A stretch of 44,286 nt of DNA from an uncultured Mailhella sp. (GTDB taxonomy: Bacteria; Desulfobacterota; Desulfovibrionia; Desulfovibrionales; Desulfovibrionaceae). The first letter of the stretch is position 1. The number at the start of each line of letters is the position of its first letter. Under the pieces are notes generated by a model. The model searched no databases. It was not told the DNA's origin and saw nothing but the letters and a program-made list of their open reading frames with translations. The stretch lies in assembly GCF_947631555.1 (NCBI RefSeq), contig NZ_CANRLT010000013.1:1-44286 (forward strand), given 5' to 3'. The position numbers and the translations under genes were made by a program. This document shows positions 7,228-26,096 of the stretch, in pieces.

Positions 7228-8067
7228 CTAAAGCATATCATCAAAAATGGTGCGCCATGCCTCATCAGGAGAACGGCGCAGGTCAACAAGCCAGGGCTGC
7301 ATATGCCTGTCTACGGTCAGCACGCCCAGATGTTCGGCTTCCGCAAGCATATCCGCAGCGGTAGAAGGATGCCAGCCGGTTGCCCTTTTCCAGCCGCAGG
7401 CGCGTTCCCAGTTGGTAACCGAAATATTACGCGCCCCGGGGAAAAAGTCTGCCAGCAACTGGGCCAGCCATGCGGCATAGCCACGTCGGCTTTCCATAGC
7501 AAGAGGAGCGGCAGCACGATGAATTTGCTCATCGTTTTCCGTCAGTACCCCGGCCCCCTTGAAGGCGGCCTCATCGGTATATGCGCCAATGACAGGCCCA
7601 ATGGGATTGCGCCCTTCCGCAGCATAAACGGTGCGCAGATGGTGTTCAAGCGTCTGACGGCTGAAATCCATGCCCAACGTTTCCATGCCTTCCACAAAGA
7701 CCTGATACCAGAGATCCGCGCCGGTACGAGGGTGGCAGAGCTGAAGATGCGCCAACCATTGCGTCACAGGACTAGAGAGGAACGGATCTTCAACCAGAAC
7801 AACCCGCCCGAAAGGCGTCAGCGAAAAAGTATAGACTGCATTTGTTTTTTGCGGACGCAACAGCCCCATCCCCGTGCAATAATCAATGGTCGGCTGCATT
7901 TTACCAGAGCTTGAACCGGTGGGAATACCCGTATGCTTGCTGATTTCCTCAAGCGAACCACTTTTTCCGGCGGCGGCATACCGCAACAGCGCAGAAAGGT
8001 AGCTGCGTTCAGGCTTGAATGTTCGATGGAAGTTACGTGCAAGGCGCGTATGCTGTTCAGTTGCCAA
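7228..8067 (-). CDS. Second DUF4007-type (SspB-like) protein
   Basis: This 279-aa product resembles the first gene of the operon: an N-terminal winged-helix-like region (SLEEISKHTGIPTGSSSGKM), then LTPFGRVVLVEDPFLSSPVTQWL, the part that matches DUF4007 best, and a GYAAWLAQLL helix parallel to GYAIWDYL in the 22762-23646 protein. I place the start at TTG 8067, because GGAGG sits about ten bases upstream inside the end of the preceding gene and the result is an 11-bp overlap, typical of translational coupling. A longer GTG start at 8136 would overlap by 80 bp. SspB proteins are nickases in single-strand PT systems; whether this diverged copy is active is unknown. It is followed by the second SspC-like ATPase, so a B-C pair is repeated. 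Confidence 0.65.
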   Translation of the reverse strand: MATEQHTRLARNFHRTFKPERSYLSALLRYAAAGKSGSLEEISKHTGIPTGSSSGKMQPTIDYCTGMGLLRPQKTNAVYTFSLTPFGRVVLVEDPFLSSPVTQWLAHLQLCHPRTGADLWYQVFVEGMETLGMDFSRQTLEHHLRTVYAAEGRNPIGPVIGAYTDEAAFKGAGVLTENDEQIHRAAAPLAMESRRGYAAWLAQLLADFFPGARNISVTNWERACGWKRATGWHPSTAADMLAEAEHLGVLTVDRHMQPWLVDLRRSPDEAWRTIFDDML

Positions 8068-11000
8068 AGCCGCGTTCCTCCATGCTGGCGATTTTGACGA
8101 AACGCACGGGCCGTTCCTGTGACGATACAGGGCCAACCAGGTAGCATTCTCCGCGCTTCAGTCGTGCGAGTTGTTCTTTCCACTCCGAAGCGGAAAAAGA
8201 AGAATCCACATCATGCAGTTGTTTGCCACACTCTGCCATTTCATTATCTGCCGGGCGAAAATACAGTTTGCAGGCGGCCTGATTCAAGGTACTCAGCGAC
8301 TGCTTGATACCAGAGAACGACTGCGTTGCCGCAATTAATCCCATGCCGAATTTGCGCCCTTCACGCAAGATTTTATCAACGGGCGAGCCGCTTTGCAGAC
8401 TAAGGTTCTGTATCTCATCCAAAACAACAATACTTGGATGCTCAGGACTACCGCTACGCTGGGCATGAAAGAAAAGATCCCAGAGAACAAACTCGATGAT
8501 TCCCGCCGCAAAAACTCCTGGGATAGAAGCAAGTTGAAAAACATGATTGCAGGCAGGCAACATATTGTAGAGCTTTTCCCAGCCTACATCATCACGAGGT
8601 TCTGTAAACGGATTTGTTCTGAGGAAACTTCGAATATGACTTTGCAGAGTCTCCAACGAAGTTTTATTATGATGCTCATCGACATGATAAGATTTCAGTA
8701 TATCTTCCACGTGCTGAAACGTTGTTTCCGGATACATTTCCAGGCTTTCAATAATAGCATCCTGCAGGATGTTAACCTGCTGTGTTCCGAGATTGAAAAT
8801 CTTTCTGAAAATATCCGTAATTCTGCCAGCAACAAGATATGGTGGTTCGTCCGCATGAATTTGCGGTATCTTCTGCCTGGTCAAAGGATTGATGGGGAGA
8901 GGCTTTGCCACAACAACATGTTGTTCACTTTCTGGAAAATACGGTTTGACTGGAGGCAAAATTTCTGTAGGCGTAAAGCTCTGGCTGTAATCCAGCACCA
9001 TGGTATTGAGCTGCTTTCGGGCCAGTTCTGCCAACAGGCATTGGATAGCATAGGTCTTGCCATTGCCGGAGCTGCCAAAGATGATGAGGTGACGATTAAC
9101 GGCATCTCTGAAACGCCAGTAAACAGGCTTCCCGCTTCTGTTAACGCCGAGCAGAATTTGCTCTGGGATACTTTTCGCCTCTGAAATGTCTGAAGGTGTC
9201 GGCGCAGGTTCGGGAGCGCCGGATTCTGATGTGGATACATAACGGGAGCTTTCATCGGGGGCTGTCGGGGACGTTTCTCCTGCCGCATTGGCACCTTCCC
9301 CCTGAAGGGCTACTGCACCGCCCGAACCATGCGCGCAGAAATTCGGATCCGTAACGCTGTCAGTTGCGCGATCTTCCTGTATTGGGTCGTCTGATAAACT
9401 GGCTGAGGCGGGTTCCAGAAATTCCGGCGAGAGATAGGTACGCATCCAGTCGGGTTGTTCCTCATCGCTTTCATCGACGCTGTCATCCGTTTCGTCCCCA
9501 AGCAGGGAAGCCACCACTTCAGAAAAATCGTCTTCTGAAGGTTCCGTGGACGGGAGAGGGTAAGCGTCAGGATAGCGATCTTCCTGTTCTGGGCACGAAT
9601 CCTGCTGCCGGGCCTCTTCCCAGATTTTCGAAGATGCTTCCTGCAAGGCCAGCTGAATTTGCAAGGGATAGCCAATGACACACTGGCGAGCGGGAATACC
9701 ATCAATGCTCCACCTGTCGGTCCATCGAGGTTCTGTACCGGCATCATCAGTCCAGTAGGTCAGCAGCAACGCTTCCCATTCAATGGAAAATTGCCCTTCG
9801 GTCAGCTGTTCCAGCAGAGTTGCAGGATCTTTGGAATGCAGCTCCGGTTCCACATACATGTTGCTGGTGATGACGCGGTGCAGCTGATGCCACCAGTAGC
9901 GGCGATCGGGTCGAGCGTCATCTAGTTCGTCCGCACCGAGCGGGCGAAACAGAGGCTCTAGTTGGCTCAGACCGCTGCGCAGCTGCTCATGGGCGTGCCA
10001 CACATAGGCATCGTTTGAGCACGCCAGTTTGCATTCTATGAGCAGGGCATGCAAATGCAGGCGGCCATCCCGCTCTACTCCCGTAAGCCAAAGCAAATCG
10101 GGGTGGCTGGCATCACGCGAGGGAAGCCAATGATGATAAGCGTCCAGAGAAATGATGGTGTCGCAAAGCGTATCAGGCACTTGCAAAAGGCGCCGGCTCA
10201 GAGAATAGGCCAGAAAATCATGAATGTAGGTATCTTGCAGGCTGGCCGCACGAATAAGCCCCATGCCGGCCAGTTTTTCCGCGTGCAGCAAATTTTCCGC
10301 CATAGCGCGGCAGGTAGCGGTATCAGGAGCGTTGTCGCCATAGAGGCTGGCCAGTCGCTGACCAATGTGAACGCACAAATCCTGACAGCTCAACTGTTCG
10401 GACGAAACAGTATAATTGGCTTCTCCGTGGCTGCCTACGCCGGAACCGAAGGCGATAATGTCCCGAACTATTCCAGCGGGCGCGGAATCACGAATGAGCG
10501 CCTCATCCATGGCTGGATCAATACAAATAACCCATTCAGCGGCCTTGTGCAAAAGGGCCAGGCTGTCTTTCCATTCATGAAAACTGCCATGGCTGATAAC
10601 CAGCGATGACGCCGAAGGAGGCCTTCGGTTCAGTGCAGCCAGCAGCTCGCTATGCAGCGATGTTGCAGGAAACTGACGCAAGCTGACAACACGCGACCGG
10701 GAGAGGTTTTGGCTCTCTCTGCGCGAGACACAATATTTTTTTTCAAGAATGGGGAATTTTAATTCTGTACTTGTAATGTCAAATTGAGCAATATCTTTAA
10801 AAATACATGATGTCATACTGACATCAAACAAATCATAAAGTAGGGCTATGTCCACATCTATTTTGCCTTGGCGCAGAAAATTTTCCATTTCCTTGCTGCT
10901 GCATACAATTTGATGCGCAACTGAGATGCGACAAAAACGATAACAGGAATTAGTCGTCAGACTGTCCTCTTCCCGTGCGGTACTCCAGCGCTCCTGCCAG

Positions 11001-13516
11001 TGGTTGAGCCAGATACGCAGGTCGGCCGCATCATTGCTATTGCTGAAGAAAAACAAACGCACGTCATAGAGCGTATCACGACTAGCAAGGTTGTACGTCT
11101 CGCTCTTGGTCAGACCTTGCAAAAAACTGTGCAGGCCGGCAATAACAGGCTGAATGGAAGTATTACGAAAAATGGCAAGGCTGATGCCATCTCCGGCGTG
11201 AGGGCGCAAGGTATGGTATTGCCCAAGCAAATCTTCCAGCAAGGCGGATTCATCGCTTTCTGCATACAAATCAATATCGCTCAGCTTCTCCTGAAAGCGA
11301 TCACCATCGCTGTGCAATCGCGTGGAAAGCGTATCTGTTCCGGGATGTTCCAGATGGCCTATTTTGTGTATATGGCCCTCCCCACGAACTTCGCTGCTCA
11401 GAATCTGATCCCGGGTGCGCAACAGGGTACACAGGGGAGCGTGCGTGCGCGCCATGCTGAGATAGCGCTGCAACACTCTGGGAGTGAAGCCCTTCGATGT
11501 ATGGCAAGCCTGGTGGTAAACATGTCGGAACCCGGCACATAAGAAGATAATCTGCGCGTGAATCTGTTCCAGCAGCGCGGGGTGCAGTACCGTAACGACA
11601 GCCGAATCTTCATAGTCAGAAAGCCACCAGTTGATGCCCTGTTCCGGGAGAGGCTGCTGCGTAAAAAGAAAGGCGCGCATAAGCGCAGGTCCAAGACGGG
11701 TCGCGCCCTTACAGACAAGATCTTTGCCTCCCCGCAGAGCACTTTCATAGGCGTTTTTGAGCTGCCGCCAGGGGCCGTTGCCGCTGCCATCTTGCGAAAA
11801 AAGGGCATGGAACAGACTGTGGCTCGCGGCATGCCGCATAAATTCGGCATAGGCTCTGGACAGATGAGACAGCCGCCATACAAGCGGATCTTCCGTTGAG
11901 GTCTGTTCCTTGTTCAATAAATTGTCGGCAAAGCTCATCTCCGTACTATCACGCAGACCATGACGCAAAATTTCGCATGTATCATTACCATCGGGGGCAT
12001 TCAATAATTCCTCATAATACGGCAGATGATAAACCGGCAGAAGTGACGCACCGTCTGTAAACAGCGCAGCCGCGCGACGAATCAGTTCCGCATCCAACCG
12101 ATCTCCATGCTTTTCAGGAAGAATCCATTCGTAGCTAGCCTGAAACAACTCAGGTTCATCGGGGCCTTCCGCAATTTCTACCCTGAAGCGAAAAGAAGGT
12201 GTCTTGCTGGTAGCTTTGGGTGCGTCATCCGGTAGCAAGCGGCTACAGACGCGCAAGCCGTTTTCATCCTGCAAATAGGTTTCCAGCAGCATGTCTACTC
12301 CATCCAGCAAGTGGAGTAGCTGCTCTCTGGCATGTTCGCAGAGTTCTCCGGCAAGCACCTGCCCGCCGCTTTCACCATCATTGGCAAACTTGTAACTTTC
12401 TCCGTACAGGCGCAGACAGCACGCAGAGGGGAATTCGTGCTCCACGTTTTTGCGGCACGCTTCCAGCGTTATCCACAAGGCTGTCAGCAGCGTTTCCACC
12501 AGCGAACCGTAGAGCTTACGCGGGGTTTCCCTGCTTTTTTTGACGCGCGGGGGACGGCAGTGCAACACGACATCATGTAATGTCACAAAATCACAGTCGT
12601 ATAACTTTTCCCTGTCATCGCTGCTTTCCGTGTCGATATAGCACAGAACCCCTTGAAGAAATTCTCTGCCAGAGGGATATGAAGGGCAAACCTCATCGGG
12701 CCTCTCATTCAGAAGGCGCATGGCCGGAGCCCCCTGCTCCAGCTGTTCAAGGGCGGTTTCTACCGCCTTGTGGGCGGCGGTGCGATCCTTGAATTTGATG
12801 AACGAGCTGTAATCAAAAAACGGCTGGGCGGCCCTGGCATACTGCATGAATGTCTTGCCGCGACACTTACGGGCAAACCCCTGGCAGTTGGGCAGATCAA
12901 AATATCGCAGGTTGGCCAGCATTCGCTGTAACAGCTCGGAACCGCTGTACAGGCCGTTCATATCCATACTGTCCAGCCAGCCGCTGATTCGCAGTAGCCC
13001 CCCATTTGGCAGCATACGTAAAGAGTTGAGCAGGTTATCTACCTTGCTCATGGCTTTGTCGGCTGGCAAAACCAAATCCGCCGCCTCAAGGCGACTGCGA
13101 AGCCAGTCTGCAAACAGCGTATTGCCGTAGCGTGCCCATATAAAGGCTTCATCGCAGAAGGTAAAATCTTCCAACCCTGCCGTATCGGTAATCTTGTCCA
13201 CGCCGCAGAGTACGACAAGCCGTTTTTCCTGTGTACCAAGAACGTTACGATAGTAGGTAAGGTTGCCGCGCTTGTCTTCCCAGCCATTGTCGCGCGCAAG
13301 CTGCACATCTTTTGCCTGCCATCGCTGCATGGTTCTGGAGGCGATTTTCAGTTCAAGCCTGGCCTGATGTTTTCTGGCAAGTTCCGTCAATTGCCGGGCG
13401 ATGGCCAGCATGAAGGGCGCATCGTAACTAGGCAAAGTAACGAGGGTGCGACCCTGCCCATTGGCCCGCAGCATCGTTTCCACGGCAACGGAAATGGAGT
13501 GGCTGAACAAAAGCAT
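8057..13516 (-). CDS. SspH/DptH-like PT-dependent restriction protein with nuclease-like and HerA-type ATPase domains
   Basis: This is a very large protein (1819 aa). The C-terminal ~350 residues form a HerA/FtsK-type ATPase with Walker A FGSSGNGKT (about residue 1480) and Walker B SIVVLDEIQNL (about 1695). Around residues 1135-1175 the pattern PDLLWL, then LLIECK, then HAHEQL fits a PD-(D/E)xK nuclease core (D, ExK and a following Q). A strongly acidic linker (about 1330-1365) separates the two. The N-terminal half has no motif I can name. Size, HerA module and position after F and G genes match DptH/DndH/SspH. In such systems the FGH complex damages DNA lacking phosphorothioate; that role is inferred. 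The ATG directly abuts the stop of the G gene, and the 3' end overlaps the next gene by 11 bp. Confidence 0.7.
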   Translation of the reverse strand: MLLFSHSISVAVETMLRANGQGRTLVTLPSYDAPFMLAIARQLTELARKHQARLELKIASRTMQRWQAKDVQLARDNGWEDKRGNLTYYRNVLGTQEKRLVVLCGVDKITDTAGLEDFTFCDEAFIWARYGNTLFADWLRSRLEAADLVLPADKAMSKVDNLLNSLRMLPNGGLLRISGWLDSMDMNGLYSGSELLQRMLANLRYFDLPNCQGFARKCRGKTFMQYARAAQPFFDYSSFIKFKDRTAAHKAVETALEQLEQGAPAMRLLNERPDEVCPSYPSGREFLQGVLCYIDTESSDDREKLYDCDFVTLHDVVLHCRPPRVKKSRETPRKLYGSLVETLLTALWITLEACRKNVEHEFPSACCLRLYGESYKFANDGESGGQVLAGELCEHAREQLLHLLDGVDMLLETYLQDENGLRVCSRLLPDDAPKATSKTPSFRFRVEIAEGPDEPELFQASYEWILPEKHGDRLDAELIRRAAALFTDGASLLPVYHLPYYEELLNAPDGNDTCEILRHGLRDSTEMSFADNLLNKEQTSTEDPLVWRLSHLSRAYAEFMRHAASHSLFHALFSQDGSGNGPWRQLKNAYESALRGGKDLVCKGATRLGPALMRAFLFTQQPLPEQGINWWLSDYEDSAVVTVLHPALLEQIHAQIIFLCAGFRHVYHQACHTSKGFTPRVLQRYLSMARTHAPLCTLLRTRDQILSSEVRGEGHIHKIGHLEHPGTDTLSTRLHSDGDRFQEKLSDIDLYAESDESALLEDLLGQYHTLRPHAGDGISLAIFRNTSIQPVIAGLHSFLQGLTKSETYNLASRDTLYDVRLFFFSNSNDAADLRIWLNHWQERWSTAREEDSLTTNSCYRFCRISVAHQIVCSSKEMENFLRQGKIDVDIALLYDLFDVSMTSCIFKDIAQFDITSTELKFPILEKKYCVSRRESQNLSRSRVVSLRQFPATSLHSELLAALNRRPPSASSLVISHGSFHEWKDSLALLHKAAEWVICIDPAMDEALIRDSAPAGIVRDIIAFGSGVGSHGEANYTVSSEQLSCQDLCVHIGQRLASLYGDNAPDTATCRAMAENLLHAEKLAGMGLIRAASLQDTYIHDFLAYSLSRRLLQVPDTLCDTIISLDAYHHWLPSRDASHPDLLWLTGVERDGRLHLHALLIECKLACSNDAYVWHAHEQLRSGLSQLEPLFRPLGADELDDARPDRRYWWHQLHRVITSNMYVEPELHSKDPATLLEQLTEGQFSIEWEALLLTYWTDDAGTEPRWTDRWSIDGIPARQCVIGYPLQIQLALQEASSKIWEEARQQDSCPEQEDRYPDAYPLPSTEPSEDDFSEVVASLLGDETDDSVDESDEEQPDWMRTYLSPEFLEPASASLSDDPIQEDRATDSVTDPNFCAHGSGGAVALQGEGANAAGETSPTAPDESSRYVSTSESGAPEPAPTPSDISEAKSIPEQILLGVNRSGKPVYWRFRDAVNRHLIIFGSSGNGKTYAIQCLLAELARKQLNTMVLDYSQSFTPTEILPPVKPYFPESEQHVVVAKPLPINPLTRQKIPQIHADEPPYLVAGRITDIFRKIFNLGTQQVNILQDAIIESLEMYPETTFQHVEDILKSYHVDEHHNKTSLETLQSHIRSFLRTNPFTEPRDDVGWEKLYNMLPACNHVFQLASIPGVFAAGIIEFVLWDLFFHAQRSGSPEHPSIVVLDEIQNLSLQSGSPVDKILREGRKFGMGLIAATQSFSGIKQSLSTLNQAACKLYFRPADNEMAECGKQLHDVDSSFSASEWKEQLARLKRGECYLVGPVSSQERPVRFVKIASMEERGFGN

Positions 13517-15175
13517 CTAGGCCTCCAGACTTTCAGCGATGGGATTATGGACAAGGGAGCAGGCATCGGAAAGGTGTATCAGAAAATTTCCGTCTTCCAG
13601 CATATTGTGCAGCCAGGCATCACAACGGACAGAAAAGAGCGCCGACTGCCCGCTCAACCAGCGCTGCGCCTCTTCAAAGCCCTCTGCGTCAAAGACAAAG
13701 CCATGCCAGGCCCGCACGCGCCGCTTGAACGTATCCAGACTCAGATGTTTTTGTGCGGGCACAAGCGTTAAAACCAGCAAACGCAGAATTCGCGCTGACA
13801 AAACAAAGCGTTCGCCGCTGCCGGTACGGGGCACCATCAGCCCCAGATAATTTTTGGCAAGCGAAGCGAACAGACCCGCCGCGTATTTGCGGCTGACCAC
13901 ATCGCCCAGAAATTTCTTTTTTGCGGCTTCCAGATCTGTGTGAGCCCCCTTGTTTTTACCGGCGGGCTCATACGTGCAGTTGGGCAGCTGTGCCAGAATC
14001 AGCCGCTCCTGCATGGTGCGCAGGTATTTGCAGGCATGCTGCGAAACACTGCGCAAGGCAAAATTTGCCTCATCCAAAGCCGTAACGGGGATCAGGTAGC
14101 CGGGCCAAGGCAGGGGTTGCCTGGTCAGAAACGCTGTTCTGGCCAGTAATGTACGCAGAATTTGCAGGCCACAGGCGGTTTCAAGCAACGCAAGCCGCTC
14201 CATAATGTCAACATCTGCCCGCAGAATGTGCAATAATTCAACGGCAAACAGATAGCCTTCCTTCCAACTGTCGGCGGCGCACCAACCCATGGCTTGATAG
14301 CGCGGCTCCCCGTCCCGATCCGCATCCGTACTGAGGGCGGTTTCCTCTTCCAGCTCGCAAATGAGCGAGGCCAGATCGTCCAGCCCGGAATAGGAAAGCT
14401 GCATAGCGGCCAGCGCTTGTTCCAGAGCCAGACGCAGACCTTCGGGGTCAAGTTCCTCCGGACCAAGACCCAGCGCCGCATCTTTATTCCAGCGGACGAT
14501 TTCGTCCTGCTTTCTGCTCAGGGCAAGGCAGAGTTGGTAGTAAAGGACGTCTCCACCATGAGACATAAACGCATACTTATTATTGCTAAAAAACGGGAGC
14601 GCCTCATCCCAAGTAGATGCAGCTTTTCCCTTTGTTTCTTCCCAAATAGTTTCTGCTGTCAAAAGATGCGGACAAAGCGGCAGGAATTGCTGTGCGCACC
14701 AGGTACGGCCTTCCCCTGTGGAACGTAAACCAAGAAACAAGTTTTCCAAATCGCGCAGAATGGCGCTCTTGTCGGCGTCGGAGTCGGTACGCAAGCGCTC
14801 ACGGAGCCTTTTTTGCAGCTCATCAAAATGGTCACGGTGGGTTTTGTGGCGGGCATCTAGACGAGACGCACCTAAAAAAGCAAATAATTTCAAATTCAAA
14901 CGTGCCGAAGGCGCATACTCTAAACGGAGACCGCCAGACACATTCAATACCTCACGAGAGGGAAAACATCCCTCAATGGGAGAATATGGCTGTTGCGCAA
15001 GCCGCTTGGGAGAAAACAGAATAAGCAGCAATTCGTTGAGAAATTCCGGCAAACTCTGATCTGTAAAAAGACGTTTACCGAAAAAACGGAACGCGGGATT
15101 CTCTTTCCAATCATTAACACTAACAGAAGAAAAAAGAGAGGCGGCCGGGTAGAGATGGGGTTCAGTGTGTTCCAC
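13517..15175 (-). CDS. SspG/DptG-like restriction protein
   Basis: The 552-aa product has no motif that I can name with certainty. It is rich in Leu and charged residues and probably all-helical. The call rests mainly on position: it lies between the F and H genes, as DptG does in FGH modules. The start is GTG 15175, with GGAGGTG just upstream inside the last codons of the F gene, giving a 14-bp overlap and probable translational coupling. Known DptG proteins are somewhat shorter. The assignment should be checked by profile search. Confidence 0.55.
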   Translation of the reverse strand: MEHTEPHLYPAASLFSSVSVNDWKENPAFRFFGKRLFTDQSLPEFLNELLLILFSPKRLAQQPYSPIEGCFPSREVLNVSGGLRLEYAPSARLNLKLFAFLGASRLDARHKTHRDHFDELQKRLRERLRTDSDADKSAILRDLENLFLGLRSTGEGRTWCAQQFLPLCPHLLTAETIWEETKGKAASTWDEALPFFSNNKYAFMSHGGDVLYYQLCLALSRKQDEIVRWNKDAALGLGPEELDPEGLRLALEQALAAMQLSYSGLDDLASLICELEEETALSTDADRDGEPRYQAMGWCAADSWKEGYLFAVELLHILRADVDIMERLALLETACGLQILRTLLARTAFLTRQPLPWPGYLIPVTALDEANFALRSVSQHACKYLRTMQERLILAQLPNCTYEPAGKNKGAHTDLEAAKKKFLGDVVSRKYAAGLFASLAKNYLGLMVPRTGSGERFVLSARILRLLVLTLVPAQKHLSLDTFKRRVRAWHGFVFDAEGFEEAQRWLSGQSALFSVRCDAWLHNMLEDGNFLIHLSDACSLVHNPIAESLEA

Positions 15176-17432
15176 GAATCACCTCCAGCATAGTATCGTT
15201 TAATATGTAGTCATCCTGAATCAATTTATAATCGGAACAGTAACGCAGCAGACGTATGGGCTGCGCTCCCTCATCTTCCTTCATGCAGCGGAGAATCTGG
15301 GCCTTTAAGGTATCAAGTTGTTGGGCAAAGGTAGCTCGGGGCAAATCGCCTATCGCGCCCTCATAGCGGCGCAGCACATAATCTAGAAAGGGAACCGTCA
15401 GCTCTAGCGGGGTTATGCCCTGCAGATTGCGCCGCCCTTCCAGTAGCAGGGATGGGCTGCCGTCCGGGCGGTTCTGGAGCCGCAAATCAAAATTTTCCTG
15501 CCATGAAACCGAACAAAGCACGATTTGTACGCTCTGCCGTAAAAGAGGCGTAGGACGATTCAAGGTAATATACAAACTGTGCTGCCGGGTACTGGTTGGC
15601 AGATGTATGCCGGTAAAGTGTTCCTGCAGAACATGAAACAGGCAGGTCAGCAGGTGGCGTTTGACGCCAGTCTCCAATTGGGTCTGCCCGTGTAACCCGG
15701 CATACAGGACTACACCGGGCGACCGGAGAAATTCCTGCTGCAGCCGATTCTGCAAATCCTTCCCGCTAGGACGAGCGCAAAAATAAAGAAGACGTCTGGC
15801 TTGCAGGCGGGCTTCCGCACCGGCAGATGGGTCTGCCTGCGTGCTGCCCCGCCGCAACAGGCGCTGCAAAAACGGAACGACTTGCGAAGGAAGCCCCAGC
15901 ATCTTTGCATCAGTAGGCAACGCATGCCAGAGCTTCTTGTCCACACACGGTAAAGGGTATGCGCCCAACCGCTGTTCGTGTACGGCCCGAATGGCGGCCA
16001 TATCTCCCACCAGGCTGTCAGGTCTGGCGTGCGGCCCACCAAAAAAGAGATTGTACACATGCTGCCTTGAGCCAATATGGGGTTCAAGAATTTCTGCCCG
16101 GCACAAGCTTTGCTCATCCAAGCCGCCTGTCAGGCAATAGGCCAGATGTTCGCTCAGCTGCCGCATGGTCAGGCGAATTCCATAGGCCTGCAAACGTTTG
16201 TAGGCGAGAAACAGACGCTGGCGGGCCGGGCTGTTCGTATCCGCGAGTAACATCCGATTAAAATGAACGGGGCAGGCACTTTGATGGCGACAGGCAGAGC
16301 ATTGTGTCCATAGCTCCGGCTTCAGCATGTTGGAAAGGACGGTCTGCGCAAGAGGGAGATTATCACGCAAAGCCAGATTATAGATTTTGAACGGTCGCCC
16401 CCGAAAGGAAAAACTGTCATCCTGCTCTCTGCTCAGACTGCCAAGCAGTGAACTCTCCAGCTCCACATGCCGGGAAGCATCCTTTTCCTGCGACAGAAAA
16501 AATTCACGTAATGCGCCGGTATTGGAAACAAGCAAACTCCGCGTCTGACCATCGAGCAGATCCTTAAGCAGCTCTTCGTGCCGATGATGCTCCTGCTCAC
16601 TAAGGTCTTTGATCAGCAGAGCCTTATGACCATCTATGGTAAAATGCACACGGCTGTTCCCTAGTTCCGGGAGAGGCTGCTCAAAGGGAATGCCGCATAA
16701 TTTACGATAGACGGCAAAAGCCAGCGTTGTCTTGCCATCCCCGGCGTGCCCTGTAAGAATGATGCTGTGCGTGCCAGCTTTTAAATCTCTGACGAGCTCA
16801 TCTTCCAGAGGATGCGGCGCGACAACTCGGGCAAAGAGAGGATTCTGTGCCTGAAATTCTGCCAGCGCATTTTCATTTCCACCATGAATACGTTGCAACG
16901 TTGTCAAATAGCTTATAAAATTAGCACATTGTTTAGATAATGGAGATGGCACTGATGAAGTTACTTCTTTACTTTTTTCCATAATACTCATACATACATG
17001 TTTTATTTTCTCAGCAAGTTTTTTACGAAAATTTTTATTCTGGAAGTTATGATGCATACCTTCAGAAAGATATGCGTATTCAATCACCTCACGGATTCTT
17101 TTAAGTGTAAAACGTGAATTTTTATTTTTTATAATGTCATTATATATTTCATCTTTATCTTTTTTTATTTTTAAAAACCAAAATTTATTATTTACAAGAT
17201 AAAAGAATGGATATTCAATAGCGTTTTTAGGGAGAAAAGTTTCTCCAAAAAATCTCTCAGCTATATAGTTGAATATGTCTATTACTTCATCAATATTTAT
17301 TCTATTATCTCGATTTGGATTTACATTATAAAGATGAGTTACGGAAAGAAGTAGTATATATTTATGAGGATGAATAGACTTCACCTCATTCATCATATTT
17401 TTATCAAGAATCAAATCTAATTTGCTATTCAT
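15162..17432 (-). CDS. SspF/DptF-like P-loop protein with N-terminal sulfur-binding-domain-like extension
   Basis: The 756-aa product has two parts. Residues ~190-756 look like DptF: Walker A TGHAGDGKTT (about residue 227) and a four-cysteine cluster CSACRHQSACP (about 378). Residues 1-150 are an addition: HPHKYILLLSV, then a helix, IEYPFFYLVNNKFWFL, and RIREVIEYAYLSEG followed by NFRKKLAEKI. That succession (HK-LLL, YPF-x2-L-x3-FW, EYAYL, FR-x2-L) is the pattern I know from the N-terminal DNA-sulfur-recognition domain of ScoMcrA-type HNH nucleases. Residues 1-178 are encoded by markedly AT-richer DNA than the rest. The gene starts one base after the cysteine desulfurase stop and overlaps the G gene by 14 bp. 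The P-loop call is firm, DptF-like is likely, and the SBD-like call is moderate. Confidence 0.7.
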   Translation of the reverse strand: MNSKLDLILDKNMMNEVKSIHPHKYILLLSVTHLYNVNPNRDNRINIDEVIDIFNYIAERFFGETFLPKNAIEYPFFYLVNNKFWFLKIKKDKDEIYNDIIKNKNSRFTLKRIREVIEYAYLSEGMHHNFQNKNFRKKLAEKIKHVCMSIMEKSKEVTSSVPSPLSKQCANFISYLTTLQRIHGGNENALAEFQAQNPLFARVVAPHPLEDELVRDLKAGTHSIILTGHAGDGKTTLAFAVYRKLCGIPFEQPLPELGNSRVHFTIDGHKALLIKDLSEQEHHRHEELLKDLLDGQTRSLLVSNTGALREFFLSQEKDASRHVELESSLLGSLSREQDDSFSFRGRPFKIYNLALRDNLPLAQTVLSNMLKPELWTQCSACRHQSACPVHFNRMLLADTNSPARQRLFLAYKRLQAYGIRLTMRQLSEHLAYCLTGGLDEQSLCRAEILEPHIGSRQHVYNLFFGGPHARPDSLVGDMAAIRAVHEQRLGAYPLPCVDKKLWHALPTDAKMLGLPSQVVPFLQRLLRRGSTQADPSAGAEARLQARRLLYFCARPSGKDLQNRLQQEFLRSPGVVLYAGLHGQTQLETGVKRHLLTCLFHVLQEHFTGIHLPTSTRQHSLYITLNRPTPLLRQSVQIVLCSVSWQENFDLRLQNRPDGSPSLLLEGRRNLQGITPLELTVPFLDYVLRRYEGAIGDLPRATFAQQLDTLKAQILRCMKEDEGAQPIRLLRYCSDYKLIQDDYILNDTMLEVIRGTH

Positions 17433-17433
17433 C

Positions 17434-18555
17434 CTAAACGACCTCTTCTATTGAGCTTATCAATAACTCTATATCATGCTTTGTAACATTCTCAAGAAGA
17501 GTAAATCGTAAAAATTTGTTTTTTAATTTTTTTTCTATCAACACACTATCAACAACATGCGATAGACCTATGACACCAGATTTACAGGCAGAGCCATCTG
17601 AAAACAGTACATCCTTACACCGCAAAAAGAGCATATCTGCATCAATACCTTCAATAAGAAGGCCAGAGGTATTAGGGAGCCTATCTACGTTTTTTCCCAA
17701 CACACTAATAGAATTATTAAATTTTCTTCCAAGAGAATCTTCTAACAAATCCCGTAAAGTAGCAACATTTTCCAAGACATTTGCTGGGCGTTGCTGCAGC
17801 CTGTCGCAGGCAGCACCAAAACCAACAATGCCCGGCACATTCAGCGTGCCGGGGCGCAGGCCGCCCTCCTGCCCTCCGCCGCGCAGTGGGCGCGGCCAGG
17901 GCCAGCGCAGCGGGCCGCCCTTGACAAAAAGCGCACCGATGCCCTTGGGGCCATAAATTTTATGGGCGCTGAATGAAGCGAAGTCACATTCCCAGTCCAG
18001 CATGGAAACAGGCATTTTCCCCAATGCCTGCACCGCATCCACATGAAAGAACGCCCCAACCTCATGTGCAAGCCGGGAAATTTGAAGAACAGGCTGAATA
18101 GTACCGATTTCGTTGTTGGCGGCCTGAACGGAAACCAGTGCGGTTTCCGGCGTTATGGCTCGAGCTGCGGCATCTAGGTCAACAACGCCATCCGGCGTAA
18201 CCGGCAAACGGGTAACCTCGAAACCCTGCTCCTCCAGCAGGGCGGCGCTTTCCAGCACAGACTTGTGTTCTATGGCGCTGACAACAACGTGGCGCCGTGT
18301 ACGGGGGGCCAGCAGCAACCCCCAAAAAACAAGATTGGTGCTTTCTGTTGCGCCAGAGGTAAAGATTATTTCCTGCGGACGGGCATCCAGACATTCGGCC
18401 ACAGAACGTCGTGCCGCGGCTACAGCCTGTGCGGCCACACGCCCGGCGCAGTGCGGGCTGGACGCATTGGCGAAAGCATCACTCCAATAAGGGCGCATGG
18501 CCTCCTGCACTTCTGGTGCACAGGGGGTTGTTGCATTGGCGTCAAAATACAGCAT
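17434..18555 (-). CDS. sspA: Cysteine desulfurase, SspA/DndA/IscS-like
   Basis: This PLP enzyme would take sulfur from L-cysteine as a persulfide and pass it to the PT machinery. Visible features are the N-terminal YFDANATTP, the AHK Schiff-base lysine (about residue 200) and the persulfide cysteine in SDGSACKSG (about residue 323). The length (373 aa) is normal. The start is ATG 18555, preceded by AGGAGG; an upstream in-frame extension to 18633 would overlap the previous gene and does not fit the family. It follows the SspD-like gene by 14 bp and precedes the F gene by one base, so sulfur supply is built into the operon. The last third, including the catalytic cysteine, is AT-rich, unlike the first two thirds. 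A housekeeping IscS/NifS is excluded mainly by context. Confidence 0.85.
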   Translation of the reverse strand: MLYFDANATTPCAPEVQEAMRPYWSDAFANASSPHCAGRVAAQAVAAARRSVAECLDARPQEIIFTSGATESTNLVFWGLLLAPRTRRHVVVSAIEHKSVLESAALLEEQGFEVTRLPVTPDGVVDLDAAARAITPETALVSVQAANNEIGTIQPVLQISRLAHEVGAFFHVDAVQALGKMPVSMLDWECDFASFSAHKIYGPKGIGALFVKGGPLRWPWPRPLRGGGQEGGLRPGTLNVPGIVGFGAACDRLQQRPANVLENVATLRDLLEDSLGRKFNNSISVLGKNVDRLPNTSGLLIEGIDADMLFLRCKDVLFSDGSACKSGVIGLSHVVDSVLIEKKLKNKFLRFTLLENVTKHDIELLISSIEEVV

Positions 18556-18569
18556 GCCCTTCCTCCTGT

Positions 18570-19397
18570 TCAGATATGGCAGACAAGGCAGGCCAGTTCC
18601 TGCCCCTCCGCGTCTCCGTCCCACATGTCGCACAGGCGTTGATTGCTCGCAAATTTCTGCGCTTCGCGCCGCATGCGCTTTTCGTATTCTTTTTTAATGG
18701 CTGCCACGCGTTCGGGCCTGCACAGCTCCTCCAGACTTTCGTCCTGCATCCAGGTAAAGCGTTCGCCGGTATCCGGATCTATTTTTTCATAAGATTGGGC
18801 CAGCTCGAACAGATCTTTATGGTTCTCCAGCAAGCCCACCCATTCGCGCTTTTGCTGGAAGAAGCAAAAATAGCAGCCGGATCGTGAGCGCCATTGATAA
18901 TAGCTAGGCAATCCCAAACCGCAATCTTCCAGAATGCGATAGATGTCGCTTTTGATAAGCCCGTCTTCCGCAAAGGGAAACACCGTTGTCACGCCGGGCT
19001 TGCCTGAAATATAGCCCTGCCGGTGAGGTTCATCAGCACGTATCCCCACATAGCTGACAACAGGATCATCTCCGATAAATTTTTCATAGGGCTTGAGCTT
19101 GAGCATTCGCGTACACCAACGAGTGTTGGCATCAGGCAGCACACCGGAAAACATCTTCAAATAAAAATCGAATCCCTCTGCTGCTGATATGGTATGTATT
19201 TTCATATCAAGAAATGATTCTAATTTTTTTAAATAATCATAAGTTTCTTCCAGCTCTACTCCTGTATCACAAAACACATATTCAAGATTTGGAACTTTAT
19301 CCCGAAGATACACAGCCATGGCGGAACTGTCCTTGCCGCCAGAAAGGGCAAGAATATGCCGTCTGTCTGTCTTTTTCGCCCATTCTCGCCAATTCAT
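18570..19397 (-). CDS. sspD: PAPS-reductase/ATP-pyrophosphatase family protein, SspD/DndC-like
   Basis: The 275-aa protein belongs to the adenine-nucleotide alpha-hydrolase (PP-loop) family. The PP-loop SGGKDS is at residues 19-24. Cysteines that could hold an Fe-S cluster or carry sulfur are in RWCTR (about 95), GCYFC (about 174 and 177) and CLVC (270, 273). In PT systems this protein is thought to adenylate the DNA backbone and insert sulfur delivered by the cysteine desulfurase. The start ATG overlaps the stop of the SspC-like gene (ATGA, 4 bp), and the desulfurase gene follows 14 bp later. The region 19140-19300 is AT-rich. A sulfate-assimilation CysH is unlikely given the neighbours. Confidence 0.85.
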   Translation of the reverse strand: MNWREWAKKTDRRHILALSGGKDSSAMAVYLRDKVPNLEYVFCDTGVELEETYDYLKKLESFLDMKIHTISAAEGFDFYLKMFSGVLPDANTRWCTRMLKLKPYEKFIGDDPVVSYVGIRADEPHRQGYISGKPGVTTVFPFAEDGLIKSDIYRILEDCGLGLPSYYQWRSRSGCYFCFFQQKREWVGLLENHKDLFELAQSYEKIDPDTGERFTWMQDESLEELCRPERVAAIKKEYEKRMRREAQKFASNQRLCDMWDGDAEGQELACLVCHI

Positions 19398-22300
19398 TGA
19401 TTATTCCCCTTATCAACACCGCCTTCTACTTCCCGGAGCAGTTCACGTAATGCTTCCGCAAGGACACGGGGCGGGGCTTGTTTTTGTACCTCTTGCAGCT
19501 TCGTGGCCAGCAGCGTGCGAATATGTTCCTTGCTTTTTTGTTCTTCGCTGTTGAGAAAAGCGCTTCCAAAGTCTTCCCAGGCGCGCCGAAATTGCTCTCC
19601 TGTACCCAGGGCCGCATCGTTGAAAGCGACAACGTCAGCATCGTTCCATCGCTCAAAAGCCCGGCCATAGACGATGCCCAGAATGCCTTCCAGACGGCTG
19701 TCTTCATTGCTTTCCGTGCGGCAGGCACGTTCCAGGACAGGAGCAAGCCCCCCCCGGCGCACCCTCCTGGCCAGAAAGGCCGCGCGTTCCACAAAGCCAT
19801 GCCAACCGAAATCTCCGCCAGGCAGGCCGCAAGCGCACAAAAGCTCATCACGGCATCGGGCACGCGTCCGAGGGGCAAAGTCCATCAATTCCCCCATGCT
19901 TTCGCGCATGGCAGCGGCGAATTTTTCCGCCTCGCCCTCCGTTGTGCCCACCAACAGAGACGGCAGACCGAAGGCTTCGGGCAATTCCTCAAACAACAGG
20001 CGTTCGGGAGAGCGGGCGGAACGAAAGCAGTCCCGCAGAGCCTTGCCGCGCGTAGATGCGAGCTTTGCCGTGTGCTGCGTGATGGAGGGAAGCTGCCGAA
20101 TGGCCGCATACAGGCGGGCCACCACCGCGGGTACGGTTGCTTCCACCCGCAAACCCGCGGCATAGCGTTCAACAATGGCCAGGCGTTCCCCTTTCAGCCG
20201 TACGCCGGAAATACCGAACAAATCTGGCCGGCGCTGCATTAATTCCACGCTGGCCTCGTCCAGCTGGGGCAAAAAGGAGCCTTCACGGTACAAAAACAAC
20301 TCGGAACGGCGGCAAAGGTAAAAGGCCAGCAGCAGAATGGGCAAGATTCCTTCCGGAACACCGTAAGGGGGGGCTATTAGCTTGCGGAAAAGCCCCGGCA
20401 AGGGGACGCATTCTCCGGCGGCAGTATAAATTTCCCGCTCCAGCGCCTGCCAGACCGCAAACAGGTCTGAATTTGGGTCAGGCTCGCACAAGCGCCAATG
20501 CTCGTTATCTGCCTGCTGATGCAGGTCGGTTCCGCGCAAAACGGATTCATACATACTGCGTTCCGGCGGAAAGCCCTCAATACCTAGAGTACGTTGCCCG
20601 GCATGTGTCAGCATGCGCTTAAGCAGCATATTGCGGGCCGCCGTAGCCGCCGAAGAGAGAGCAGGCCGGGCGACCAGTTCATTTTTGATGCGAGGAGCAT
20701 GAGGATACAAGGTATCGCACACCAAGCTCAGCAGACGGGTTACATCAACGGGGCGCGTCACGACCTGCTGACAACCGTTCCAGAACCAGCGGCAGGCATT
20801 GCCCCGGGGCGCCGGGCGCGGATCCAGCAACAGATCGACATTTTGGCGGATACGGCGCTCGCAGTCGACCAGCAACGTGCCGTATTCCCTCAACGCGCGC
20901 CGGTCGCCGCGCAGCTCCGGGGTGTGCTTCGCCACCCAGCGCAGACAAGCAAGCTCAATAGCCGGTTGACGCAGCATGTCGAGCTGTTGTGGAAAGGCTA
21001 TGACCAGAGATGGGTCTTTCCGGGTCGCTTGCAGGGCATCCGCTTCAAGCCGGGCCTGATCACTCATGGGCAGGAGAACAACCACGTGTCCGGCTTCGCA
21101 GGATGCCCGTGCGTCCTTGCGGGGAGCAAGGCCTGTGACAGAGGCGGTATATTCCAAATCAAAAAAACGATATGCGCCGCTTTGCAGGCAATGCCTGCGG
21201 GCCACCAGCGGCCGTGTGGAAACATGTTCCCGTACCAGCTCTACAAAGGCCGACCCCTCATAGCGCAACTGTTTTCGGGCTTTTTGCAGCAGGGATTCCA
21301 TATCTATGGAACCGCCTTCCCATAAACGAAAACTCTGATCCAGCTGCCGGAAGGTCAGCAACTCCTGCCGTCGCAAATCCTGAAGGGTTTCCGGCACATC
21401 CCGGCTTTGAGCCAGTACCGCGGAGAGGATACGTTTTGTGGCTTTCAGGGGTGTGCCAGGACCAAGAACATTGAGAACCCCCACCGCTCGAAGGATTCGA
21501 GCCTGTAAAGGCACCAGTGTCTTGCCGCCATCCTCCAGCGTTTCCAGCAAAACCCGGGCAACAGGGCGTTGCATGAGGGTAGCCGTCATGTTGGTCAGCA
21601 GATAGTCGGCAATATTGTGCAAGCGCACAAATCCGTTATCCACAGCTGAATCGCGGCGGCAATGCTCCTGAAAACCGTGCGGCTCCTGACTGGCAAGGTA
21701 CGAAAATAGTGAGCGCTCATTCTGGGCAAGACGCCGAAACAGCAGCGGCAGCACCAGCACCACCGAAGGATGCAGCGGCCAGGCATGCTGACAAATATGG
21801 ATAAATTCGGCCGAAGTCATGCCCGGGGGCAATTCCGCGCCTGCGTCAAGCAAATTTTGTGCTTCCCCCATGATTACGTCCAGCAGAGAACATGGTAATG
21901 GGCAGGAATAGCACAGCACCTGCCCCAGCGTATTCAGGTCGGAGGCAAGCTGTTCATTGAAGGGCAGCGACTCAAAACGCTCCTGCACCTTGGCCCACTC
22001 ATGGCGCAGAGTGGTGTTGCTCAGTTCCGTATAACCATCAAAGTGCTGATGCTGTACCGTCAGGAACAGCATAGGAGTGTTTGTAGCCCGCTTGGCATAT
22101 TCGGCCAGCATCTGAAACAGATAGACATCACCGCCAACTTTATCCTGCAGTGCGTATTCCAGACTTTTTCCTGCCTCGTCCACAATCAGCAGCATCCCGC
22201 CGCGTTTGCGCTTCTCTGCCAAACGCCGCACCGCATCCACCTGCTCCAGCACAGCGGCGCTGTCACGCCATCCCGCCTGTTGCAGCAGCCTTTCCAGATG

Positions 22301-22759
22301 TTGCTCCAGGCTTTGGCGTTCATCATCTTCCGGCAATGTTTTCAATGCCGTTTGCAATCCCTCAAGAATAATTTGTCCGATGGGACTGCGGCGCGCCGTC
22401 AGCGGTACGCAAAGCCAGGGGCGAACCGCTTCGCACAGTTCAGCAAAGCGTTGGGCAAGTTCGGGAGAATTTTGACAAAGTTCGGTGTAAGCCCGATTTT
22501 TTTTGTGCGCGCCTTCACTGAACAGGGCGTTCACAAACAGGGCAAAAGTTGACTTCCCCGCGCCGTATGGTCCGAAAATCATGAAGCTGCGCTCGCCCTG
22601 ATCATTTTCCAGGTTATCCAGCAGACGGTTCAAAGCATGCGCGACAAGAGGCGTAACAAGTATGTCGTCCAGAGCGTGAATATCGTGCCTGTCCGCAGAA
22701 AGATTGACGGCACGGCGGTAGCGGGTGCGTACGGAAACAAGATCAGAAAGGACTGGCAT
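19394..22759 (-). CDS. sspC: SspC-like large ATPase
   Basis: The 1121-aa protein has Walker A FGPYGAGKS (residues 62-70) and a Walker B-like motif MLLIVDEAGKSLEY (about 190). The remaining ~900 residues have no named motif and are mostly helical. In single-strand PT systems SspC is the ATPase acting with the nickase SspB and with SspD to process the modification site; this is inferred from its place between the DUF4007 and SspD-like genes. It starts two bases after the DUF4007 stop and overlaps SspD by 4 bp, so the three are almost surely co-translated. It has the same architecture as the frameshifted ATPase at the end of the operon. A BrxC/PglY relative is the main alternative, but no PglX, PglZ or BrxL gene is present. 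Confidence 0.7.
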   Translation of the reverse strand: MPVLSDLVSVRTRYRRAVNLSADRHDIHALDDILVTPLVAHALNRLLDNLENDQGERSFMIFGPYGAGKSTFALFVNALFSEGAHKKNRAYTELCQNSPELAQRFAELCEAVRPWLCVPLTARRSPIGQIILEGLQTALKTLPEDDERQSLEQHLERLLQQAGWRDSAAVLEQVDAVRRLAEKRKRGGMLLIVDEAGKSLEYALQDKVGGDVYLFQMLAEYAKRATNTPMLFLTVQHQHFDGYTELSNTTLRHEWAKVQERFESLPFNEQLASDLNTLGQVLCYSCPLPCSLLDVIMGEAQNLLDAGAELPPGMTSAEFIHICQHAWPLHPSVVLVLPLLFRRLAQNERSLFSYLASQEPHGFQEHCRRDSAVDNGFVRLHNIADYLLTNMTATLMQRPVARVLLETLEDGGKTLVPLQARILRAVGVLNVLGPGTPLKATKRILSAVLAQSRDVPETLQDLRRQELLTFRQLDQSFRLWEGGSIDMESLLQKARKQLRYEGSAFVELVREHVSTRPLVARRHCLQSGAYRFFDLEYTASVTGLAPRKDARASCEAGHVVVLLPMSDQARLEADALQATRKDPSLVIAFPQQLDMLRQPAIELACLRWVAKHTPELRGDRRALREYGTLLVDCERRIRQNVDLLLDPRPAPRGNACRWFWNGCQQVVTRPVDVTRLLSLVCDTLYPHAPRIKNELVARPALSSAATAARNMLLKRMLTHAGQRTLGIEGFPPERSMYESVLRGTDLHQQADNEHWRLCEPDPNSDLFAVWQALEREIYTAAGECVPLPGLFRKLIAPPYGVPEGILPILLLAFYLCRRSELFLYREGSFLPQLDEASVELMQRRPDLFGISGVRLKGERLAIVERYAAGLRVEATVPAVVARLYAAIRQLPSITQHTAKLASTRGKALRDCFRSARSPERLLFEELPEAFGLPSLLVGTTEGEAEKFAAAMRESMGELMDFAPRTRARCRDELLCACGLPGGDFGWHGFVERAAFLARRVRRGGLAPVLERACRTESNEDSRLEGILGIVYGRAFERWNDADVVAFNDAALGTGEQFRRAWEDFGSAFLNSEEQKSKEHIRTLLATKLQEVQKQAPPRVLAEALRELLREVEGGVDKGNNQ

Positions 22760-22761
22760 GG

Positions 22762-23646
22762 CTACTCCATGTCTGTATAATAAGCGCGCAGCAAATCCTC
22801 ACCACAGGGCAAGGTGCAAAGGATCGTCTCAATGCCTTCGGAAGCTGTCAGATTAAAACAGTCTCCCCAACGGGGGGACTGATGCAGCTGCATAACCGCT
22901 TCTACAAGGCTGTTTTCATCCAGCATAAAAATTTGTCCCGGTGCATAATCCGCATACATCAATTCGCTCAGGCGCAGGCCGTGACGGTCGTTGCTCCGCA
23001 AATAGTCCCAGATGGCATACCCGATGATTTCCGGAGGCAGCCCGCTCTTGGGCCCAATGGAAAAACGCAGCATGGAGCTTCCTTCCAGCAGGGAAAGCAA
23101 TCCCAGCTCCTGAAACGGGCAGGCATAAGACATTTCCAGCACCCGTTTTTTCCCGGCATTTTTTAACGGGGCGTACATCTTGATACAGCACTCTATATCC
23201 CGCTCCAGCGTTGGTATAGATGTCGCCTTGCCTTGACTTTGACTGTCATGCTGGCGCAAAAGCTCCAGCCAGTCATCGCAGTTAAATTCCGGCTTGTGCA
23301 TCTCACCAAACAGAAGCGTTGCCGCAGTCATAAATTGCTGCTGACTGCACATTTTCCAGTGTAGCAACCAAAGAGACGCATCATCTTCAAGACAGGGATC
23401 CCAACCATTTTGAGGCTCAAGCAACTCTTCCCCAAAGGATGTGACGCCATGTTCTTCCACCAGCCCAAAAGCATCACACCAATACTTGATGCTTTCGACC
23501 ATATTTTTTCCCACACCAAGATACGTAAGAGCATCGGGATCAGAAAATTGTCTGCCGCCCCTGATGTGCTGGTAGCCTTTTTCCAGCCAGCCATAACGAA
23601 ATGAAAAGGTCTGATGCCCGGAAAATCGGGGACGGCGTGACGTCAT
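22762..23646 (-). CDS. sspB: DUF4007 protein, SspB-like nickase candidate
   Basis: The first gene of the operon encodes 294 aa. It begins with the DUF4007 signature FSGHQTFSFRYGWLEKGY, then a winged-helix-like segment (YLGVGKNMVESIKYWCDAFGL), a typical NGWDPCLEDDASLWLLHW stretch and a C-terminal GYAIWDYL helix. DUF4007 proteins occur in PT gene clusters; SspB of single-strand PT systems is a DNA nickase, and I assign this by family memory and context. The ATG follows AAGGAG by nine bases, and a good promoter lies about 70 bp upstream. The catalytic residues are not identifiable by eye. Confidence 0.75.
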   Translation of the reverse strand: MTSRRPRFSGHQTFSFRYGWLEKGYQHIRGGRQFSDPDALTYLGVGKNMVESIKYWCDAFGLVEEHGVTSFGEELLEPQNGWDPCLEDDASLWLLHWKMCSQQQFMTAATLLFGEMHKPEFNCDDWLELLRQHDSQSQGKATSIPTLERDIECCIKMYAPLKNAGKKRVLEMSYACPFQELGLLSLLEGSSMLRFSIGPKSGLPPEIIGYAIWDYLRSNDRHGLRLSELMYADYAPGQIFMLDENSLVEAVMQLHQSPRWGDCFNLTASEGIETILCTLPCGEDLLRAYYTDME

Positions 23647-23757: not shown

Positions 23758-24580
23758 CTAGATAGTGTCGTCATTTTTCTTTTAATTTTTGTAGCTTTCC
23801 GCTATCCTTTTTCAAAAGGAAGTAGATATGGAAGCTGCGCATCGTCGTCACGATTATCTGACAAGGTTTGGGAGATTTTGGAACCGCACCTTCCAGGCCG
23901 GGAAGGAACCAGAGGTGTGACTGCCCGTGATAATCGAAATTTTCTCAATGCGGTTTTTGGGATTTGCCGAACAGGTGCTCCGTGGCGAGATTTGCCCCCT
24001 GACTATGGGGATTGGAAAAATATCCATCGCCGTTTTTGTCGATGGAGAGATAGTGGAGCGTGGGAAAGATTACTCGAAATCCTCATATTTGAACCAGATT
24101 TTGAATGGCTTATGATTGAGATGCAAGTCATATCGAAGCCCACCAGCACGCGGCAGGGGTACACGGCGGCAATCAGGACAGGGGCCGCACAAAAGGGGAC
24201 TCAACTCAAAGATACATCTGGCCGTGGATGCGCATGGTATGCCGGTTAGAATGGTTATTACAGCAGGTTCCGTTGCAGATTGTTCGCAAGCTTGCAAACT
24301 TATTGAGGGAATAGATGCGGACTATCTTTAGGCAGACAAGGAATATGACAGCGATGTGCTTGTTGATTCCGTCATCCCTCCTCGTAACGGTCGCAAAAAT
24401 ACGCGCTATTACGATAAATATCTTTATCGGCTTCGACACCTTATTGAAAATGCCTTCCTGGAATTGAAGCGTTGGCGAGGTATCGCCACACGGTATGCGA
24501 AAAACACGGCCTCTTTTCTGGCTGCTGTGCATATACGGTACATAGCCATTTGGGCTAAAATTAAAGACGACACTATCTAG
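23758..24580 (+). mobile_element. IS5-family (IS427-type) insertion sequence, decayed
   Basis: CTAGATAGTGTCGTC at 23758-23772 and its exact reverse complement at 24566-24580 form perfect 15-bp ends, with CTAG at the edges as the likely target duplication. The total length of about 820 bp fits the group. The enclosed transposase is broken, so this copy could move only with help in trans. Confidence 0.85.
23828..24580 (+). pseudogene. IS5-family transposase, frameshifted with an internal stop
   Basis: The N-terminal part reads MEAAHRRHD, then after an indel continues in a second frame from about 23870 (EPHLPGREGTRGVTARDNRN and GICRTGAPWRDLPPDYGDW). The C-terminal part lies in a third frame from about 24150 (LNSKIHLAVDAHGMP, IEGIDADYL) and ends with HLIENAFLELKRWRGIATRY. 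The switch near 24130-24200 could be the programmed frameshift usual in this group. However, the indel near 23860 and a TAG at 24329 within the DDE domain (DADYL-stop-ADKEYDSD) are lesions. Confidence 0.8.
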
Positions 24581-25631: not shown

Positions 25632-26090
25632 TTACTTGCGGCCCGTAAACGGGCTTCCTGAGTACGGGATACTCAACTGCTCTCCCAGTTTATCATCGTC
25701 CAACTGGTGTCGGATGTATTCAGCTATTCGGGTCTTATTCTTACCAACCGTGTCTACATAATACCCCCGACACCAGAATTCACGATTGCGATATTTGAAT
25801 TTCAGTTCTCCAAACTGTTCATAGATCATCAGACTGCTTTTTCCTTTCAAATATCCAACGAAACTTGATACGCTTAGCTTTGGGGGGATCTCGACAAGCA
25901 TATGGATATGATCAGGACAACATTCTGCTTCAATAATCTGTACGCCTTTCCATTCACACAATTTTCGCAGTATTTCTCCTATAGCTCTTTTCTTCTCGCC
26001 ATAGAAAACTTGTCTGCGATACTTCGGCGCAAATACGATGTGATACTTGCAGTTCCACTTCGTATGCGATAACTTCTTCGTGTCACTCAT
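25632..26090 (-). CDS. tnpA: IS200-type Y1 transposase TnpA
   Basis: The 152-aa HUH-type Y1 transposase has the His-hydrophobic-His motif in CCPDHIHMLVEIPP and the conserved KYHIVFAPKYRRQVF start. The likely catalytic tyrosine is in the YYVDTVGKN segment. Length and sequence look intact, so the element may be active. It would cut and rejoin single-stranded DNA at the end hairpins. The start is ATG 26090, with GGAGG upstream; a longer frame exists but runs through the 5' hairpin. Confidence 0.9.
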   Translation of the reverse strand: MSDTKKLSHTKWNCKYHIVFAPKYRRQVFYGEKKRAIGEILRKLCEWKGVQIIEAECCPDHIHMLVEIPPKLSVSSFVGYLKGKSSLMIYEQFGELKFKYRNREFWCRGYYVDTVGKNKTRIAEYIRHQLDDDKLGEQLSIPYSGSPFTGRK

Positions 26091-26096
26091 CGTGAC

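Follow-up and report, generated by a model that had tools for sequence, protein, structure and literature searches.

A sulfur-binding domain fused to the N-terminus of SspF in phosphorothioate-linked SspABCD-SspFGH operons

The SspABCD-SspFGH system of V. anguillarum FF-93 includes an SspF with a Walker A motif, SspG and an FtsK-like SspH; its SspFGH complex damages DNA that lacks phosphorothioate (PT) and is toxic for cells without PT, and CPSCA marks made by SspBCD neutralise it (PMC8092258). In the DndFGH complex, PT represses ATPase activity and translocation (summarised in PMC11662687). It is unresolved by what means DndFGH/SspFGH-type complexes recognise PT-marked self DNA when most sites carry no mark. 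PT is read by the sulfur-binding domain (SBD) of ScoMcrA, a type IV PT-dependent HNH endonuclease of SBD-SRA-HNH architecture that cleaves PT-DNA. The ScoMcrA SBD binds hemi-PT DNA, with sulfur on one strand, and its sulfur cavity is formed by H116, R117, Y164, P165 and A168; R117 is usually a functionally interchangeable lysine in homologs, and across SBDs conservation is highest at H116 and P165, only some members retain Y164, and A168 can be substituted (PMC6224610). Another solved SBD, SBDHga (8h0l, PT-DNA-bound), is reported to be sequence-promiscuous, with a shorter contact loop; no paper on it was found in the literature searched. PMC10853773 (2024) lists wHTH, NERD, kinase, HEPN and GNAT domains as N-terminal fusions to the DndF core, among them wHTH alone and wHTH-NERD-kinase-kinase, and elsewhere describes the SBD as a wHTH. 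The F-fused wHTH is not identified there as a PT reader, nor are its pocket residues, a link to writers or exchange as a cassette described.

The window, that is the whole stretch of DNA analysed (44,286 nucleotides from an uncultured Mailhella sp.), encodes a complete SspABCD-SspFGH PT operon with the same seven genes as V. anguillarum FF-93. The genes sspA, B, C, D, F, G and H are linked and lie on the minus strand at 8057-23646 (PADLOC): sspB, a DUF4007 gene (22762..23646; PADLOC SspB 2e-73, Pfam DUF4007 1.6e-70); the ATPase gene sspC (19394..22759; PADLOC SspC 1.9e-273); sspD, for a sulfurtransferase of the PAPS-reductase family (18570..19397; PADLOC SspD 8e-110); the cysteine desulfurase gene sspA (17434..18633; PADLOC SspA 7e-121), whose true start is likely the inner MLYFDANATTP; sspF (15162-17432); sspG (13517..15175; PADLOC SspG 4e-8); and an sspH/dndH-like translocase gene (8057..13516; PADLOC DndH 5e-46, SspH 1e-17). 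Transposase genes of IS4/5 type (23878-24249, plus strand) and IS200 type (25632-26150, minus strand) lie just upstream of the operon. On its 3' side, beyond sspH and also on the minus strand, are a divergent SspB-like (DUF4007) gene (7228-8136), a gene for a 319-aa protein resembling the SspC N-terminus (6136-7095) and a gene for a 1066-aa protein (2837-6037) that gave no family match; these three might constitute a second, reduced Ssp-like module.

The sspF reading frame encodes 756 residues. It carries the features of SspF, with a match to the PADLOC profile (E=1.3e-30) and the Walker A motif TGHAGDGKT (P-loop, aa 227-235), both in the core (15162..16919, minus strand), which was also supported by alignment. 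The preliminary description had named the protein SspF/DptF-like; it is the SspF of an Ssp system and not the DptF of a Dnd system. That description had also noted four motifs within residues 1-150, and all were present: HPHKYILLL (aa 21-29), IEYPFFYLVNNKFWFL (aa 72-87), RIREVIEYAYLSEG (aa 112-125) and NFRKKLAEKI (aa 134-143). Matches to the PADLOC SspF models are confined to aa ~172-497, so that ~170 N-terminal residues come on top of standard SspF, and the database models (525-607 aa) are about 170 residues shorter than the window protein. For the V. anguillarum FF-93 SspF only the Walker A motif is given, and no SBD (PMC8092258).

Residues ~16-147 of SspF form a genuine SBD (16992..17387, minus strand) on the combined evidence of sequence, profile, AlphaFold2 and Foldseek comparisons; PT binding itself was untested. 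A single-sequence phmmer search against all PDB chains returned one significant match, SBDHga1 (8h0l, E=2.3e-5), and a profile of 29 SspF N-termini matched the same Hahella SBD with E=6.1e-37, a resemblance far above chance. The AlphaFold2 model built from the 29-sequence alignment had a mean pLDDT of 88.7 and a pTM of 0.84. When compared with the PDB by Foldseek, this model matched 8h0l (E=3.7e-7, TM 0.69/0.71) and 8h0l_B, then seven ScoMcrA chains (5zmm/5zmn/5zmo; probability 1.00, TM ~0.57-0.63), the next match falling to E=0.055. The fold is therefore that of the two known SBD families, with nothing else close, and the earlier assignment of the N-terminus to the ScoMcrA-type DNA-sulfur-recognition domain held. 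Its limits were corrected, the SBD proper being followed by a mostly low-confidence linker (aa 148-171; 16920..16991, minus strand). In the full-length model the SBD was again separated from the core across this linker (pLDDT about 42-47 across aa 151-170) and 8h0l was again matched; the core itself matched no solved structure at E<=0.001 by Foldseek. Neither Pfam, NCBIfam nor PADLOC recognised the SBD in the window SspF or its 29 relatives, so annotation libraries alone would miss the domain. No HNH or SRA match was obtained with Pfam in the window SspF, which thus does not qualify as a ScoMcrA-type type IV nuclease, and no second SBD was found in the host genome.

Alignment of the cavity residues placed ScoMcrA H116-R117 at H23-K24 of SspF (17361..17366, minus strand) and Y164-P165, the lid and floor of the cavity, at Y74-P75 (17208..17213, minus strand), with Y78 at the position of A168; the equivalences of Y74 and Y78 rest on motif alignment and profile chaining, without residue-level superposition. 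The pocket is conserved: among 29 SspF SBDs, H23 and P75 were invariant (29/29 each), K24 was present in 28/29, tyrosine at position 74 in 7/29, and H or Y at position 78 in 28/29, the same pattern as that noted for SBDs generally in PMC6224610. PT-DNA binding remains an inference, with no binding data. The sequence specificity of the domain could not be read, because the A168 equivalent is Y or H and the Y164 equivalent is kept in only 7/29.

By sequence, SBDHga is the solved relative nearest to the window SBD, with which it has the fold and a PHK / P cavity motif in common. The window SBD differs in being fused to SspF and in having a longer basic loop, KNKNSRF (aa 103-109; 17106..17126, minus strand; a loop in the AlphaFold2 model), at the site of the SBDHga contact loop. 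This basic loop is absent from Hga-like SBDs, and is present in type I SBDs but absent from type II; it is a possible, inferred candidate for contact with bases or backbone. The ScoMcrA SBD has the same fold and equivalent pocket residues, whereas the window SBD is carried by an ATPase subunit adjoining a PT writer, with no HNH domain.

The distribution of the domain was surveyed in 79 comparable SspF loci, drawn from one scan of 84,980 species genomes and five loci from whole-genome searches. This sample is not a census, as one of the scan patterns was derived from the SBD motif and only the 80 best entries were kept. An SBD was present in 47/79 loci, which span more than ten bacterial phyla and include one archaeal MAG. 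The view that the standard protein lacks such an extension, put forward for DptF, was thus only partly upheld: it applies to the short form, and roughly half of the SspF loci in the sample have an SBD. Short SspF proteins (~566-626 aa, about 590) have no SBD, mid-size proteins (~750-815 aa) are SBD-SspF, and long proteins (~1270-1545 aa) are SBD-NERD-kinase-kinase-SspF, an order matching the wHTH-NERD-kinase-kinase fusion of DndF (PMC10853773); five long proteins had no detectable SBD. SspF proteins of ~1500 aa, in which a NERD nuclease and two kinase domains lie between SBD and core, occur at L016, L017, L033, L041, L042, L044, L045 and L048, the domains being verified in L016 and L017 and inferred in the other six from length and the presence of an SBD. 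About 14-15 mid-size gammaproteobacterial proteins carry a divergent, third type of SBD, which matched the window SBD profile by hhalign with 96.4% (E=1.3e-9; control short-form N-termini 0.3%) and ScoMcrA by sequence (4.7e-16).

No separate SBD reading frame was found at short-form loci, save in Chromatium weissei (L067), where a 194-aa SBD ORF (7391-7972) lies directly upstream of a short SspF (7953-9770); a natural split and a frameshift are both possible. In a Chlorobiaceae MAG locus (L026), stop codons interrupt the SBD-coding part of sspF around position 7126 and the central portion of the domain is apparently missing, while the core is readable. Reading of the sequences also pointed to SBD-like domains in other settings: in L011 the domain follows a HerA-like ATPase, in L009 it precedes a nuclease-like C-terminus, and in L010 and L012 it precedes HNH-like regions. 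A tblastn search of plasmids gave only SBD-less matches, at 25-27% identity.

In the sampled loci the SBD on SspF goes with PT-writing genes. All 35 SBD-bearing loci with >=3 kb of upstream sequence had sspD adjoining sspF (35/35), compared with sspD in 15/29 and any of sspB/C/D in 21/29 SBD-less loci, and no SBD was found in the loci without detectable sspB/C/D (0/8). The one-sided exact probability of this association is about 0.001, uncorrected for phylogeny; divergent Bacillota PT writers could have escaped detection in the counts. Occurrence of the extension outside PT systems, which would have refuted the assignment, was thus looked for and not found among the sampled loci. Short SspF without an SBD also adjoins complete sspABCD, for example in L101, and an SBD on F is therefore not required for every SspFGH to respect PT. 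Short sspFGH clusters without detectable sspB/C/D were noted at L055, L062, L064, L076, L082, L090 and L096, with an MkoA-like protein upstream in place of sspB/C/D in L055. Such clusters may be linked to modules of another kind, for modification or sensing.

Comparison of related loci showed that the SBD is exchanged as a cassette between ssp operons, with a junction at the SBD/core boundary, although chimeric assembly of the MAGs is possible. L052 (a Syntrophaceae MAG) and L030 (a Bacteroidota MAG) share a stretch of 9.6 kb with 98.6-99.8% identity that begins at SspF codon ~185 and takes in sspG and sspH; upstream, the 141 bp of sspD found on both contigs match at 100%. The ~1.14 kb between, comprising the remaining sspD and the SBD, could not be aligned at the DNA level. 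At the protein level the identity is 22% for the SBD and 99% for the SspF core, and the downstream junction coincides with the first conserved core motif, PNPFVAYLN. The same replacement was seen between L023 and L028, both Desulfobacteraceae MAGs, against a background of 83-88% identity (SBD 23%, core 89%, SspD 78%). Reading frames stay open across the junctions of the exchanged pairs. Within the exchanged segment of L023, a 131-aa ORF of unknown family (7527-7919) lies between sspD and sspF, and no counterpart was found in L028.

The SspF core tree shows 9 changes of SBD loop type among the proteins that have an SBD, and in the mid-size class (n=14-22) the core correlated with both SspG and SspH (Mantel r=0.89 for each), compared with r=0.19 for SBD and core. 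SBD similarity showed no correlation with SspB/C/D similarity (Mantel about 0, n=14-18), which is at odds with a strict match between the motifs of writer and reader, unless all writers share one motif.

The window contains a 915-bp AT-rich block (16867..17782, no strand assigned) that covers the SBD-coding part of sspF together with the 3'-terminal third of sspA, with a GC content of 29.5% against 54% and 60% on its flanks. Its limits come from a maximum-likelihood three-segment split (log-likelihood gain 101); it ends at SspF codon ~189, the same junction as that of the exchanged segments, and resembles the exchanged L052/L030 block in shape. Recent import as the cause of the low GC was considered and weakened: GC3 is lower in the SBD segment than in the core at each of the 35 SBD-bearing loci measured (mean 0.31 vs 0.50), including both the window and its diverged relative L013, which share the same SBD, and low GC is therefore not proof of recent import. 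A smaller second GC dip (about 36-39%) was observed at the 5' end of sspD (19100-19399).

The most likely explanation of these results is that the SBD of SspF reads the host PT mark and that SspFGH thereby spares self DNA, with both PT binding and sparing being inferred. In this view SspF would consist of a PT-DNA reader (the SBD, aa ~16-147), a flexible linker and a standard SspF ATPase core. SspABCD would put sulfur into one strand of host DNA, a single-strand mark suited to the hemi-PT binding of the ScoMcrA SBD, and the SBD would take this sulfur into the H23/K24/Y74/P75 cavity while SspFGH samples DNA. Engagement of the SBD would most likely hold or switch off the translocating, nicking complex on marked self DNA, and unmarked phage DNA, giving no SBD signal, would be damaged. 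The SBD would act as a separable module that is gained, lost, split off or replaced by recombination at the SBD/core boundary, with the F core, G and H evolving together as the module varies. Domain identity, fold, pocket conservation, association with the PT writer and cassette exchange are shown, while PT binding by the window SspF, sparing over activation and the reason for exchange are inferred. The earlier proposal that the fusion would let the complex recognise the PT mark directly, to spare or to license DNA, is accordingly supported by the data as far as the domain is concerned, while sequence leaves unsettled whether PT is bound and whether DNA is spared or licensed.

Licensing is the main rival and remains possible. 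Here the SBD would read host PT to activate or load the complex, as in SspE, so that SspFGH would be armed only in PT-positive cells and would scan outward from marked host DNA. SspE activity does require PT (PMC8092258), and a constant linkage of SBD and writer is expected from activation as well. However, the SspFGH that has been characterised shows toxicity in the absence of PT and is relieved of it by PT (PMC8092258), the opposite of a licensing requirement; that complex probably contains a short SspF (PADLOC models 525-607 aa), so SBD-bearing forms could differ. An unlikely alternative is that this winged helix of SBD fold only binds DNA or a partner, its pocket being incidental, and that another subunit such as SspG discriminates PT. 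In its favour, PMC10853773 treats the SBD as a wHTH, proposes that DndG discriminates the modification and that the N-terminal fusions of DndF serve as co-effectors, and SBD-less SspF is found beside full sspABCD; but conservation within the domain is strongest at the pocket residues, and no SBD occurs at the loci without PT genes. It is very unlikely that the SBD directs SspFGH at incoming PT-DNA with a foreign PT motif, in the manner of ScoMcrA. The SBD proteins known so far are indeed nucleases that depend on PT (PMC6224610, PMC7461809), but an SBD-HNH enzyme is not expected next to a PT writer (PMC7461809); SBD-SspF lies beside a writer at every locus that could be scored, which speaks against such an attack, and has no HNH domain.

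The SBD-SspF fusion is partly anticipated, because PMC10853773 lists an unnamed wHTH on DndF proteins. In the literature searched, SBD and SspF were mentioned together in a single paper, and not as a fusion; no SspF SBD with an intact pocket had been named as such, no PT-reading element had been assigned to any F subunit, and neither the exclusive linkage to writers, the absence from writer-less loci nor the cassette exchange was found.

A bolder proposal can be made, for and against which the evidence is evenly weighted: the SBD would be an exchangeable self-recognition cassette, behaving like target-recognition-domain swapping in type I systems. Recombination would swap the reader alone, carrying along a fragment of the upstream writer gene, and would leave F-G-H otherwise unchanged without tracking the phylogeny of the writer. 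If true, this would imply diversification under phage counter-defence or change of PT motif. The near-identical operons with different SBDs represent natural domain-swap experiments. SBD-less and SBD-bearing SspF should be treated as different classes. The pocket of the SBD provides a residue-level hypothesis (H23, K24, P75) that can be tested with single mutants, and the domain is a concrete candidate for the discrimination of self from non-self in PT systems.
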